Source of the DNA: Spirochaetota bacterium
GTDB lineage: Bacteria; Spirochaetota; UBA4802; UBA5550
NCBI GenBank assembly: GCA_017999915.1
Contig: JAGNKX010000010.1
Coordinates: 76,381-140,380 of the forward strand
Direction of reading: 5' to 3'
DNA: 64,000 nt
Under the pieces are notes generated by a model that did no database searches, was not told the origin of the DNA, and saw only the letters and a list, made by a program, of their open reading frames with translations. This document shows, in pieces, positions 7,642 to 43,852 of the stretch. The position numbers and the translations under genes are program-made. Positions within the stretch are counted from its first letter, which is position 1. Every line of letters starts with the position of its first letter.

Positions 7642-8004
7642 ATTTTATCGTTACCTCTCGCATTTTGATTTACCCGATCACCGATTTGCCTGATTTATCC
7701 TACATTATGTCGTGTTAAATTATCCTGTTATCAAAAAACAGGTACAATTTATAAAAAATTAATAATTGTATACAAAATTCCAGTTGACATTCGAATAAAA
7801 TGGTATAATTATTCATTGTCCTGAATTAATTCGGGATACATTTCCGGTCTTTAGAATAAACCATCAAGGCAAGCTTGTAAAACAGGGTTCTCATTGTGAA
7901 AGCAGTGATGACTCCGTTTTCAGCGGAATATGCCTGCAAGGGAACGACCTTTTTCATTTGGGAGGCTCCCTCGTACTACTTCCGTGGGGATTTTTGGAGG
8001 CTCT
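7642..8004. other. AT-rich intergenic region with an extended -10 promoter element
   Basis: No gene is visible. At 7801-7809 the bases TGGTATAAT form an extended -10 element (TGnTATAAT). A TTGACA lies at 7784-7789, but the spacer is 14 bases, shorter than usual, so the extended -10 may be doing the work. The inferred transcript would run about 190 bases before the Gre-domain gene at 8005, leaving a long untranslated leader. Confidence 0.45.
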
Positions 8005-8412
8005 ATGCGCAAGGGAAAAATTTTTACACGTCAAGATTATGAACGGCTCTGGAGCATCATTACGAGCAGGGAAGCAGTATCAGGCATCGAGGCTGGTACC
8101 GTCAATACCCTGAAGCGTGATCTGGAGCATTCCCGCCTTGTGGAGCCTGATGAAATAAGATCGAACATCGTAACCATGAACTCGAAATTCAGCCTCAAAA
8201 ACCTCGGCAATGGCAAAAAAGATATTTACTCGCTGGTATTTCCCAAGGACAGCACGGAAAAGAATAAAATCAATGTCCTCTCCGGCCTTGGAGCGCAGAT
8301 CCTTGGCAGTCCTGTCGGCACGGTCATAAAGACCAGCCCCGCGGGGGAACAGTATTATATCATCGATGATATTGTCTATCAGCCCGAAGCGGCCGGCGAC
8401 TACCATCTATAG
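8005..8412 (+). CDS. GreA/GreB C-terminal-domain protein (Rnk-like)
   Basis: A 135-residue protein whose second half (from SNIVTMNSKFSLKNLGNGKK to QYYIIDDIVYQPEAAGD) resembles the C-terminal FKBP-like domain of GreA/GreB transcript cleavage factors. The N-terminal part is short and helical (TRQDYERLWSIITSREAVSG), as in Rnk-type regulators, rather than the long acidic coiled coil of true Gre factors. It probably binds RNA polymerase near the secondary channel without cleavage activity; this is inference from domain content. GGAGG at 7996-8000 fixes the start at 8005; an in-frame ATG at 7930 would add 25 unrelated residues. It stands alone, between a long leader and the hairpin array. Confidence 0.75.
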   Translation: MRKGKIFTRQDYERLWSIITSREAVSGIEAGTVNTLKRDLEHSRLVEPDEIRSNIVTMNSKFSLKNLGNGKKDIYSLVFPKDSTEKNKINVLSGLGAQILGSPVGTVIKTSPAGEQYYIIDDIVYQPEAAGDYHL

Positions 8413-8820
8413 AAAACCTCCATTATGACCTGCCCTACGGCGAGGTCCATTAAAATTTTACTTGCAGAAATTTAACCGTTTGGTTAAGTATGCCCGTTAT
8501 TGAAAATCCTTTTATATATTAGCAGTTTGCTGAAAAACAGCAAACTGCTAAACGATACATGGATGTATCTCCATTTTTCGAGGCATTAGCCGAGAAAAAT
8601 GTGAGGTTTTACGAATTCACTTCGTAAAACCGACCCTGGAAAACTCCAAGGAGGGAGTTTTTCAGGAAATTACCAGATGCATTGCAATACTCTGTGTGAT
8701 TGATCATGCTTGCCCGCGCCGCTTTCGGGGGCGGGGCAACTATCATGGATCATTAAGTTACGCAAAAAGTCTATCGCGTAATTAGTATTATAAAGCCAGA
8801 TATCGTTCACGGGATGAATA
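8413..8820. other. Gene-free region holding seven or more hairpins
   Basis: No coding region is seen. Directly after the Gre-domain gene are GACCT/AGGTC (8428-8448) and TTAACC/GGTTAA (8472-8487), which may act as weak terminators. The array of five closely packed hairpins follows (separate entry). A further GC-rich stem-loop spans 8701-8752, closed by TGATC and GGATCA with an inner GCCCGC/GCGGGGC region. The small membrane protein starts 68 bases after this. Confidence 0.6.
8519..8666. repeat. Array of five tightly packed hairpins
   Basis: Five inverted repeats follow each other with only 2-5 bases between them. (1) TTAGCAGTTTGCTG 8519-8532 with 8538-8551, a perfect 14-bp stem and AAAAA loop. 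(2) GATACAT 8554-8560 with 8563-8569. (3) ATTTTTC..GGC 8573-8584 with GCC..GAAAAAT 8589-8600. (4) GGTTTTACGAA 8605-8615 with 8621-8631, perfect 11 bp. (5) CCTGGAAAACTCC 8635-8647 with 8654-8666, 13 bp with one G-T pair. CTGAAAAAC in hairpin 1 (8530-8538) can also pair with GTTTTTCAG of hairpin 5 (8657-8665), so the ends could close the whole unit. A structured RNA or a small palindromic mobile element both fit. Confidence 0.75.
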
Positions 8821-9330
8821 ATGAAAGCATTAGATGAAATCAAACGGGTGTTCACGGAAAACAGGAGAATGATACTGTACAGTGCCGCTCTCACGCTGGT
8901 ACTGGCGGTCTACTTTATCATCTGGCACTTTACGATTATCGTATTCGGCTCCTTTTACTCTGTGCTGGATGTGACGGATGGGTTCCTGAAGCGCTCCAAT
9001 TACTATCTCCTGGAAAGCTTTATCTTCGCCGGCGTCGCAGCCATGGTGATGATAGTGTTCCGGAGGGCCATCATTAAAAAGATTTTTATCGGAATCTTCA
9101 TGGCTGTGTTCCTGTTTTCCGAAATTGTGCGAATAGTGGACTGGGGAGCCCTCTACTTCATGGGGAACCATATCGACAGCAACTTCTGGGCCCATTTGTT
9201 TTATACCGACGGCATGGTCTTTCTCATCGCCAAGGAGTCTTTTGCGCTTTACGCGGCCCTTATATTATTCCTGGCCGTGGTTTATCATATTCTGAAAAAA
9301 ATGTACCTGATCGGCACTGCGGAGAACTGA
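8821..9330 (+). CDS. Small polytopic membrane protein preceding the LtaS-like gene
   Basis: A 169-residue protein with about four hydrophobic segments (about residues 19-45, 62-80, 83-105 and 132-155) and short loops. It is not recognised from sequence alone. It ends three bases before the start of the LtaS/sulfatase-like gene, so the two are surely translated from one transcript. In lipoteichoic-acid-synthase-like proteins an N-terminal membrane domain of about five segments precedes the catalytic domain; the next protein has only one segment, so this ORF may be the separated membrane part of such an enzyme. That is inference from arrangement. Confidence 0.75.
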   Translation: MKALDEIKRVFTENRRMILYSAALTLVLAVYFIIWHFTIIVFGSFYSVLDVTDGFLKRSNYYLLESFIFAGVAAMVMIVFRRAIIKKIFIGIFMAVFLFSEIVRIVDWGALYFMGNHIDSNFWAHLFYTDGMVFLIAKESFALYAALILFLAVVYHILKKMYLIGTAEN

Positions 9331-9333
9331 GCA

Positions 9334-10932
9334 ATGAAACTGAAGCTTTTAGCCGTCATCATATGCGTCAACTGCGTCGTCTGCCTTGTCGCCGGCGGTC
9401 TCGTGCATTCGCTGGCTTACCTGGGCGGGATCATCCGCGCAAAGACCATGGAATCCGCCGAACAGAAGGGTGATGAATCCGTCAACATCGATCTCAAGAA
9501 AAAAACGCTGATGGACCGCGAAAAAACCATGGCCACGGTGGAGAACATAAAGAAGAGCTACTCCAGGGTAAAAACCACCGATCCACAGATATACAACCAG
9601 CTGCCGGAGCGCGTTTTTTTCCAATCCCTCTTCAGTTATTATTTCCTGTCCCATATGCTCAGCTCCAAGGAGGTCATCCTTGACCCCGAGATCGTCACGG
9701 AATTCAAAAACCAGGGCATGATCCTCTACTCGATGGACAAGAAATATCCATTCATGAAAAAAAGCATCTACCTCGATCCCTCGCACAGGACCTATGACAG
9801 GCCGACGATCCGCGTCGGCACCAATGTGATTATCGTGTTCATCGAATCGTGCTCCTACTTTTTCCTTCAGGACGAGATCCATGGCGTTAAGGGTCTCACC
9901 CCGAACATGAAGAGGGTGGAGCAGGAATGCTTTTCCTTCACGGACATGTACAACACGAGCTATCCCACCATCAAGGGCCTCATCGCCGCCCTGGGATCGG
10001 CCATCTACCTCCTCGACGAGAGCGTCGGCGGCACCCGTATCCCGGTCCCGTGCCGCTTCCTCTTCCTGTCGAATATACTGAAAAAGCTTGATTACACCAC
10101 CATCCATATCCAGGCCGGGAGCGAGCGCTTCATCGGCATGAAGAACCTCTTCATAGAGCGGCAGGGATATGATCAATTTTACGGGAGCGAGAGCCTCGCC
10201 CTCGACAATATCAGCAGGCTCGAGGGGGGATTCGGGGTCGATGATGAAAAGGTCTTCGATTACACCGTTGAATGGCTGGAAAAGTACCAGGCGAAGAAGC
10301 CGTTCCTCCTGACCATATCCACCATCAATTCGCACCCGCCCTATAAGGGCTCCCACAAGCACCCCGATTCCGGCGGCAACCCGATGCTGAACGGTCTCTA
10401 TTCAACGGATCTGGCCTTCGGCAAGTTCTGGGATTATTTTAAAAAGTCGAAATTCAGCGGCAACACCGTGGTGGTCATCACGGCCGACCATGCCATGGGA
10501 AACAGCAATGAATACATCAGCTTCGTCAAGAAATTCGAAGAATATTACCGGCCCTTCTTCGACAGGATCCCCTGCTTCTTCTATTTTCCCGGAGGCGCGT
10601 GGAAGGGGAAGCGGAACGATACCCAGTGCGCCAGCATAGACCTCACTCCCACCATCCTGGACATGATGAACCTGGACCTGGCCAATCCCTTCATGGGGAT
10701 GTCAATATTCGCAGATCGTCCCTATTACACGAGCAACGCGAATACTCCGGGAGGGAAGGGTAAAGGCGGGGACGGGAAAAAGACAGGCAAGAAAGAGCGG
10801 CCCGCCATGGATCTCAGCATGAAAATGGACGCAAAACAGTATGAAAAGGCGAAGAAGATCCTCGGCTTTTACCTCAATACCTACCGGGAGGACAGGATCC
10901 TTCCCAAAGATTATACCGTGAAGCTGTACTGA
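9334..10932 (+). CDS. LtaS/sulfatase-family phosphotransferase-like protein
   Basis: A 532-residue protein with one N-terminal membrane segment (about residues 4-28) and an extracytoplasmic alkaline-phosphatase-superfamily domain. Seen: NVIIVFIESCSYFF (about 162-175, with the metal-binding Glu), YNTSYPTIKGLIAALGS (the likely Thr nucleophile region), TINSHPPY (about 327) and VVVITADHAMGNS (about 376-388, the metal-binding Asp-His pair). This set is typical of lipoteichoic acid synthase and phosphoglycerol transferases of the sulfatase clan. A spirochaete is not expected to make lipoteichoic acid, so decoration of another glycan or lipid is likelier. A low-complexity basic stretch rich in Gly and Lys precedes the C-terminal helix. 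Follows the small membrane protein at a 3-base gap and precedes the TerB-like gene by 10 bases. Confidence 0.85.
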   Translation: MKLKLLAVIICVNCVVCLVAGGLVHSLAYLGGIIRAKTMESAEQKGDESVNIDLKKKTLMDREKTMATVENIKKSYSRVKTTDPQIYNQLPERVFFQSLFSYYFLSHMLSSKEVILDPEIVTEFKNQGMILYSMDKKYPFMKKSIYLDPSHRTYDRPTIRVGTNVIIVFIESCSYFFLQDEIHGVKGLTPNMKRVEQECFSFTDMYNTSYPTIKGLIAALGSAIYLLDESVGGTRIPVPCRFLFLSNILKKLDYTTIHIQAGSERFIGMKNLFIERQGYDQFYGSESLALDNISRLEGGFGVDDEKVFDYTVEWLEKYQAKKPFLLTISTINSHPPYKGSHKHPDSGGNPMLNGLYSTDLAFGKFWDYFKKSKFSGNTVVVITADHAMGNSNEYISFVKKFEEYYRPFFDRIPCFFYFPGGAWKGKRNDTQCASIDLTPTILDMMNLDLANPFMGMSIFADRPYYTSNANTPGGKGKGGDGKKTGKKERPAMDLSMKMDAKQYEKAKKILGFYLNTYREDRILPKDYTVKLY

Positions 10933-15031: not shown

Positions 15032-15514
15032 AATTGATATCGTTTGCTATACTCTTGTTTTCCATTCATTACTGATCCGCCCGGGTGGATTCCTTTGTAA
15101 AGATTCTCTGGAAAAACTTCCTTCCGGGCAGTGAGAACTCGTCCCATCGGTTTTACCGTTCATGCAATATGTCGTGTCCGGAAGCAGTGATTCATACCCG
15201 CCCTCCGCGGTCTCCCCCCGGTCATACGACAATATTAATGATGCTAATACTTGCTCAAGTATTATATCGCACTATTCCTGAAAATAATCAAGTATTTTGT
15301 TGGTTTTTTAACCGGCAGATTGCTGAAAAACTGCTGACTGCAGGGTCGTGATCCCCCGCAGGAACGGTTTTTTCATCTTGACAATGCCGGTTCGTTTTAT
15401 TAGTAGTTGCAAAAATTATTGTCCTGTAACAGAATTGGTGTGTTACTGATGGTAATGGCCTAAAACGCAGTAAGGCTTATTTCATTGTTGCCAGGATTCT
15501 AAAGGGAGGAGTGA
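15032..15514. other. Divergent intergenic region with a 20-nt palindrome
   Basis: No gene is visible. TAATACTTG (15245-15253) and CAAGTATTA (15256-15264) form a near-continuous palindrome, and the half-site TCAAGTATT recurs at 15288-15296; this spacing looks like an operator region between the divergent HDOD and receiver genes. TTGCTGAAAAAC at 15320-15331 repeats a piece of hairpin 1 of the array at 8519. AAAGGGAGGAG just before 15515 is the ribosome-binding site of the receiver gene. Confidence 0.45.
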
Positions 15515-20315: not shown

Positions 20316-20359
20316 GATATTTCGAAGGCGAGGTTGCGCAACCTCGCCTTCGAAATATC
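20316..20359. repeat. 44-nt perfect palindrome, GAAGGCGAGGT family
   Basis: Two perfect 22-base arms (20316-20337 and 20338-20359) with no spacer; the inner part reads GAAGGCGAGGTTGC then its complement. It starts three bases after the ceramidase stop codon. No T-run follows. Related palindromes lie at 33185-33222, 41799-41830, 58028-58075 and, with a different core, 43823-43852. It could form a strong RNA hairpin that ends or stabilises the ceramidase transcript. Confidence 0.8.
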
Positions 20360-33184: not shown

Positions 33185-33222
33185 ATTCTGAAGGCGGGGT
33201 CACGTGACCCCGCCTTCAGAAT
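33185..33222. repeat. 38-nt perfect palindrome, GAAGGCGGGGT form
   Basis: Two 19-base arms (33185-33203, 33204-33222) with no spacer; the core reads GAAGGCGGGGTCAC followed by its complement. It belongs to the same family as 20316-20359. Because a proper terminator already lies 25 bases upstream, this palindrome is probably not needed for termination. Confidence 0.78.
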
Positions 33223-41798: not shown

Positions 41799-41830
41799 AT
41801 GAAGGCGAGGTCATGCATCCTCGCCTTCAT
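41799..41830. repeat. ATGAAGGCGAGG palindrome upstream of folE
   Basis: ATGAAGGCGAGG (41799-41810) and CCTCGCCTTCAT (41819-41830) around TCATGCAT. It lies between two divergent genes, so it cannot be a terminator for either; it is 24 bases before the folE start. It is a member of the family of 20316-20359. Confidence 0.7.
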
Positions 41831-43822: not shown

Positions 43823-43852
43823 GATAGGCGCGGTCTCGAGACCGCGCCTATC
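43823..43852. repeat. 30-nt perfect palindrome between purO and the transformylase gene
   Basis: GATAGGCGCGGTCTC (43823-43837) is followed directly by its complement (43838-43852). Structure and position resemble the GAAGGCGRGGT palindromes, but the core is AGGCGCGGT. It lies 16 bases after the purO stop and may end or attenuate the transcript before purH. Confidence 0.68.

Follow-up and report, generated by a model that had tools for sequence, protein, structure and literature searches.

A mobile five-hairpin repeat with two fixed ANGGAN loops, a probable carrier of CsrA-docking RNA

The locus and its five hairpins

The window, by which we mean the whole 64,000-nucleotide stretch of a Spirochaetota genome that was analysed, contains a 158-bp element of subfamily A at 8519-8676 (+), one of about 21 A and B copies in the genome. 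Upstream of it lies an ORF with a GreA/GreB domain (7930-8412). The nearest downstream gene (8821-9330, +) starts 145 bp after the element, encodes 169 aa with no Pfam family and is a possible cis target of the window copy; the gene run that it starts also includes a sulfatase-family membrane protein (9334-10932, +). A first-pass annotation had described five densely packed hairpins at 8519-8666 with no gene inside, and all five are present at those positions, with no convincing ORF among them. The start at 8519 proves correct, but the real unit is 10 nt longer, as copies genome-wide stop at 8676; these limits were set by aligning the copies together with their flanks.

Hairpin 1 (8519-8551, +) is the terminal inverted repeat (TIR) hairpin, a 14-bp stem with an AAAAA loop whose outer 4 bp are the target TTAG paired with an internal CTAA. 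The left target-site 4-mer TTAG itself occupies 8519-8522 and is followed by the left TIR, CAGTTTGCTGAAAAAC, at 8523-8538 (+). Hairpin 2 (8553-8570, +; about 7 bp, loop TGGA) is the first CsrA-type hairpin, GATAC-[AUGGAU]-GUATC, and its AUGGAU (8559-8564, +) is a hexaloop of the ANGGAN consensus (PMC7652899). Hairpins 3 (8572-8601, +; interrupted stem) and 4 (8605-8631, +; 11 bp) are plain, and they are followed by the second CsrA-type hairpin, hairpin 5 (8635-8666, +), which has 13 bp including one G.U pair in the window copy and carries the ANGGAN hexaloop AAGGAG (8648-8653, +). The right TIR (8657-8672, -) reads GTTTTTCAGGAAATTA on the plus strand and has decayed from GTTTTTCAGGAAACTG, and the right target 4-mer (8673-8676) has decayed to CCAG from TTAG. 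The window copy therefore retains both ANGGAN loops intact while its right end is decayed. The inverted ends of the element are CAGTTTNCTGAAAAAC. Pairing between the two ends had been reported as well, and CTGAAAAAC (8530-8538) does pair with GTTTTTCAG (8657-8665). The annotation had also considered a possible switch between two competing folds ahead of the envelope genes at 8821; the one feature seen that bears on it is this end-to-end pairing, for which the terminal inverted repeats of a transposon already account.

The plus strand of 8500-8690 folds with an MFE of -78.7 kcal/mol, against -34.7 +/- 3.9 kcal/mol in 200 dinucleotide shuffles (z = -11.4), so that the suspicion of a hairpin density beyond chance was justified; the minus-strand fold of the same region gives a z of -9.4. 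Fragments of the end sequence had also been pointed out at 15322 and 51536. The former is a degenerate lone left end, CGGCAGATTGCTGAAAAAC, at 15313-15331 with the rest of the element absent, but the latter (GGCTGAAAAACC) has neither a hairpin nor any other part of the element around it and looks like chance. Directly 3' of the element lies a GC-rich inverted repeat (8697-8752; TTGCCCGCGCCGC TTTC GGGGGCGGGGCAA), and similar CCCGCCGCC hairpins flank two other copies, L012 and L027.

Dispersed copies, ends and target sites

A search of the 5.46-Mb source genome returned the approximately 21 dispersed copies, along with shorter pieces, at 90-98% identity over query positions 15-165. Subfamily A is 158 bp long, whereas the five copies of subfamily B measure 214 bp and contain an extra segment of about 60 bp with two further hairpins, placed before hairpin 5. 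The loops of these extra hairpins, GGACAGGATGTCC and GCGCAGGATGCGC, are CsrB-like and bring the number of sites to four. Counting two loops for each of 16 A copies and four for each of five B copies, we estimate that the source genome holds about 50 intact or near-intact loops. GGA has been lost from hairpin 2 of L010, L014 and L060 and from hairpin 5 of L012 and L014, and therefore not every copy can be functional. Very short versions of 52-73 bp (L024, L025, L026) retain the ends alone. Additionally, single perfect ends with no remainder nearby occur in the genome of a distant relative (G164:C1:625542, 736952, 864665, 2379048 and others) and may be end-only derivatives.

Across copies the TIRs (CAGTTTGCTGAAAAAC / CAGTTTCCTGAAAAAC) are bordered by TTAG, and the target duplication is 4 bp long and YTAR-like, being TTAG in the source genus. 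In 24 of 40 cases a copy has the same 4-mer at both ends, as compared with 16.4 after permutation (maximum 21 in 200), the informative pairs being ATAG/ATAG (L006), CTAG/CTAG (L061) and TTAA/TTAA (L063). Targets are more varied among gammaproteobacterial copies (CTAG, TTAA, TTAG, ATAG, CAAG and others), where identical 4-mers are found in 20 of 31 copies against 3.7 after permutation (maximum 10 in 1000). Empty sites are also present. For example, the closest sister species, G003, whose flanks are 86-90% identical, has a single ATATTAGAATTGACA where the source genome has ATATTAG[element]TTAGATTTGACA (L016). At L022, four sister species have a tight, intact stop-SD-ATG junction that is split by the element in the source genome; at L010 the target does not align cleanly. 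The element is thus short (158 or 214 bp), non-coding, TIR-bounded, flanked by a target-site duplication and dispersed, with empty sites in relatives, all of which are features of a MITE. The annotation's proposal of a palindromic mobile element is borne out by the many copies, inverted ends, target duplication and empty sites. In hairpin 1 of L065, L072 and L181 a variant target 4-mer (TTAT, ATAG) is matched by the internal arm (ATAA, CTAT), a match that may stem from guided choice of the target or from subsequent correction of the palindrome.

The element is probably moved by a DDE-type transposase acting in trans. The IS5 and IS701 groups are IS elements with 4-bp YTAR targets, and our element shares the size and sequence of their target duplication; it differs from them in that searches of the source genome (G000) and of G164 revealed no transposase of this sort whose ends match, and no pair of TIRs brackets a gene in either. 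IS701/DDE_5, considered as the autonomous partner, is absent from the source genome. The partner could have been lost or could be present in unsampled strains. A TA-only duplication (IS630/Correia style) was dropped because a duplication of 4 bp fits instead. Palindromic HUH elements of the IS200/IS605 type insert without target duplication, and the 4-bp duplication rules out an element of this type.

Covariation and fixed loops among relatives

In an alignment of 28 A copies from three species of the genus, 94.7% of cells pair and two-sided changes occur at 15 of 56 pairs, compared with 5.1 in shuffled data, with compensatory changes being most abundant in hairpin 4. A covariance model built from these copies was run against 296 genomes of the phylum, a search that leans towards the loops used to build the model, and it recovered relatives in 21 genomes, several of which contain 4-10 copies. 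The first-pass annotation had proposed looking for copies and for covariation in relatives, and both are found. Phylum-wide, two-sided changes affect all 56 pairs (1001 cells versus 234 shuffled) and the covariation score is 0.300 versus at most 0.051 with partners slid, figures that lean upward as the alignment was fitted to the structure. The stems have mostly been rewritten among relatives by compensatory changes while the two GGA loops are unchanged. Gammaproteobacteria also keep the five-hairpin layout; in Immundisolibacter it consists of a TIR hairpin, GGGGCAGGATGCCCC, two plain hairpins, an ANGGAN hairpin and a TIR. The hairpin-4 core has no exact match in GTDB or in viral contigs, nor did phages, plasmids and viral contigs match the element.

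On rewritten stems, distant relatives retain A(N)GGA as the loop of both hairpin 2 and hairpin 5, as in GGCAAAATAGGATGTTTTGCC and GTCCACGGATGGAC of G164, GTACAGGGATGTAC of G148, GTACAAGGATGTAC of G182 and GAAAACATGGATGTTTTC of G179. Identity in this distant set is 61-74% at the GGA positions versus 18-50% in other loops. To remove the bias of the covariance model, we scanned GTDB genomes with the hairpin-5 stems fixed and the loop given as six Ns, which returned at least 122 distinct hairpins from at least 28 assemblies (Spirochaetota, Gammaproteobacteria, Myxococcales and others). Among the matches listed, ANGGAN is present in 110 of 122 hairpins, where about 1% would be expected, and in 25 of 28 assemblies; the loop A, G, G and A are each 93-95% fixed whereas both N positions vary, the first of them being C46 T41 G25 A10. 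Since these hairpins are related by descent and the 122 listed are not independent draws, the argument rests on free versus fixed positions and not on the count. The region upstream, which was not selected for, contains a sense GGA hairpin in 49 of 94 matches listed, an antisense one in 3 of 94 and one in 1 of 82 controls. A strand bias of 39 versus 6 had been obtained before mis-oriented loci of the Rfam family TD-2 were corrected.

An ordinary MITE whose hairpins matter as DNA only, either as GGA tips and stems recognised by the transposase or as products of palindrome-correcting replication, would have the mobility, TIRs and target duplication described above with no role for CsrA. Template switching is able to mend hairpin arms and so imitate covariation; covariation alone consequently does not prove an RNA, and such repair could be a contributor to the pattern. 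Moreover, mismatches of the G.U kind do not differ clearly from those of the A.C kind (27 cells and 19 types versus 16 cells and 13 types), and a strand call from them was abandoned as too weak, so that the pairing by itself does not identify the strand. Template switching would, however, account for the arms only, and a loop in which ANGGAN is conserved while its N positions vary freely does not follow from it. The restriction of the motif to one strand in both counts above, its recurrence in a second, unrelated family of repeats in the source genome and the biased orientation near start codons (see below) likewise speak against a purely DNA-level role, which we regard as unlikely. The copies and their relatives make up a mobile, TIR-bounded, TTAG/YTAR-targeting repeat superfamily in which the five-hairpin fold is maintained and two ANGGAN loops are fixed on one strand.

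CsrA, neighbouring genes and known families

CsrA is a global post-transcriptional regulator, and to our knowledge little is known about how its regulon gains and loses genes or about CsrA antagonists outside the Gammaproteobacteria. The source genome encodes a single canonical CsrA (MLVLARRLNES...VTVHRKEIY; gene at G000:C7:155905-156060), and a FliW-like ORF lies upstream of its gene. As in CsrA/RsmA-binding RNAs, the element has A(N)GGA in hairpin loops and at least two such sites per RNA, in hairpins 2 and 5. The SELEX consensus for CsrA is RUACARGGAUGU and the ANGGAN hexaloop is seen in RsmE structures (PMC7652899); some relatives match this consensus exactly (GUACAGGGAUGU in L157, GUACAAGGAUGU in L155). 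In Leptospira, a spirochaete, CsrA binding to flaB leaders is GGA-dependent (PMC8668096). Two features run against a CsrA-docking role. SELEX preferred short stems, which in most ligands did not exceed 4 bp (PMC7652899), and the 13-bp stem of hairpin 5 is longer. Additionally, the loops are about 84 nt apart linearly, which is beyond the reported bridging range of 10-63 nt unless the folding of hairpins 3 and 4 draws them closer together.

The sequence-unrelated repeat family, with 15-20 copies in the same genome, carries a pair of CsrA-type ACANGGAYGU hairpins, GACATGGATGTC and AACATGGATGTT, in which GGA is fixed and neighbouring bases are variable. Its pattern is CCATCCCGGCGAGA AGGCGACATGGATGTCGCC ... 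AACATGGATGTT ... GGGATGG, found at L010:2240-2340 and L247-L265 (e.g. C7:92121-92568) and also in the sister genomes G003 and G004. A further family of repeats with five hairpins (CATTTGAGTTGTTGTAAAAC...GTTTTGCAACAAGTTTATTG), in which GCAGGATGC and CAGGGACG form loops, occurs in G003 at L197:1001-1141 (-) and has one full copy in the source genome (L030/L269, G000:C8:192833-192973). The window also contains a hairpin, CCGGTACAGGACGCGTACCGG, at 1748-1768 that is a possible lone CsrA-type site.

We consider the element likely to be a MITE, a transposon of the non-autonomous kind, whose cargo is a structured CsrA-docking RNA; the transcription of this RNA and its binding by CsrA are predicted from sequence. 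Read-through transcription in the plus direction, mostly as a leader or as an intergenic spacer within operons, would yield an RNA that folds into the five hairpins, and hairpins 2 and 5 would offer their ANGGAN hexaloops to a CsrA dimer, a prediction to which the sequence gives strong support. Hairpins 3 and 4 may serve as rigid spacers that would bring the two CsrA sites together. The most likely effect would be CsrA tethered just upstream of the ribosome-binding site of the next gene, with a change in translation or mRNA stability, and many copies together may also titrate CsrA. Covariation, the conserved loops and the orientation of copies close to start codons lend support to the structured non-coding RNA that the first-pass annotation had entertained; it had been set against a mobile element, but the two readings are not alternatives and describe one and the same object.

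In a set of 82 copies, those no more than 30 nt from a translation start comprise 13 in sense and 1 in antisense orientation (p = 0.0018); in L003 and L019, for example, the right end is 11-19 nt ahead of the ATG. Selection need not be the cause, since TTAG orients insertion and is able to overlap a TAG stop codon, so that the pattern could instead reflect a preference for inserting at stop codons. The 13 sense copies adjoining start codons, together with the covariation, are also what a cis-regulatory RNA, be it a true riboswitch or a leader family, would exhibit if it were copied by recombination or selection without transposition. However, target duplications, TIRs and empty sites make this fail as a sole explanation, many copies occupy divergent or antisense positions, and the downstream genes looked at have no evident common theme, so that we hold it to be most improbable. 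Paired ANGGAN hairpins, the additional CsrB-like loops of subfamily B and the high copy number would also be in keeping with a dedicated family of CsrB/RsmZ-like sRNA genes, the copies of which are separately transcribed sponges with incidental mobility. This is rather improbable given that many copies sit inside operon junctions, that no Rfam Csr/Rsm family matches and that no promoter or terminator of their own was established.

At the gathering threshold of Rfam the window element has no match, and at an E-value threshold it retrieves only sub-threshold TD-2 and TwoAYGGAY and chance miRNA models. A bulk search of other copies gave no match, and gammaproteobacterial copies gave one weak match to RsmV. 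The nearest known family is TD-2 from Treponema (RF03162; clan CL00124, with clan-mate TD-1, RF03155), whose model scores the window element at 28.6 bits, below the cut-off of 48.7, and the element is therefore not filed as TD-2. Similar to our element, TD-2 is multi-copy, with at least 13 copies per genome in several Treponema-family genomes. In TD-2 a plain hairpin stands between two ANGGA hairpins, an arrangement found in hairpins 2, 4 and 5 of the window element, and the last hairpin of TD-2, GCTGAAAAA..ACAAGGATGT..TTTTTCAGC, resembles hairpin 5. Two loci are matched by both models (G289:C25, G218:C23). What sets the window element apart is its five-hairpin layout, together with its TIRs and duplicated target, in a comparison that covered the hairpins, scores and copy number of TD-2. 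TwoAYGGAY (RF01731; 18.5 bits for the window element versus 43 needed) and Bacillaceae-1 (RF01690) also have two hairpins with CsrA-type loops and have been predicted to bind CsrA without belonging to the classical sRNAs (PMC4333381), but they come from other taxa and the literature examined does not describe them as mobile repeats.

The sRNAs CsrB, CsrC, RsmX, RsmY and RsmZ likewise contain several GGA hairpin loops, which sequester CsrA, and the CAGGATG loops of subfamily B equal the CsrB repeat CAGGA(U/A/C)G (PMC7652899). In contrast to the dispersed, TIR-bounded element, which has no Rfam match, they are single-locus genes. Prokaryotic MITEs (Correia/CREE, ERIC, RUP, Coxiella QMITE) are also short, non-coding, TIR-bounded and dispersed intergenically, but the element differs from them in its conserved five-hairpin layout and GGA loops fixed across phyla. 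Some MITEs affect transcripts, for example through RNase cleavage or protein (IHF) sites, and the review describing this (PMC10969869) contains no mention of CsrA. The sole co-mention of "miniature inverted-repeat" and "CsrA" in the literature examined is in the Rfam 12 database paper.

On balance we favour the broader proposal of a multi-phylum transposon superfamily with a conserved CsrA-docking RNA cargo, in which insertion at start codons would enrol genes in the CsrA regulon, or the mass of copies would set the level of free CsrA, and in which binding would have kept the loops fixed while stems were rewritten. In this way the element may disseminate CsrA control within genomes, or else a sponge for the protein. 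If the repeats bind CsrA, they would constitute a large reservoir of CsrA sites and a prefabricated mobile tag that turns CsrA control on or off, in parallel to eukaryotic transposons that bear transcription-factor sites. Such CsrA-docking repeats would also explain the multi-copy TD-2 RNAs of Treponema.

Elsewhere in the window are four long perfect palindromes (20316-20359, 33185-33222, 41799-41830 and 43823-43852) that have a common AAGGCGRGGT / ACCYCGCCTT core and different centres, and perhaps represent another palindromic repeat family.
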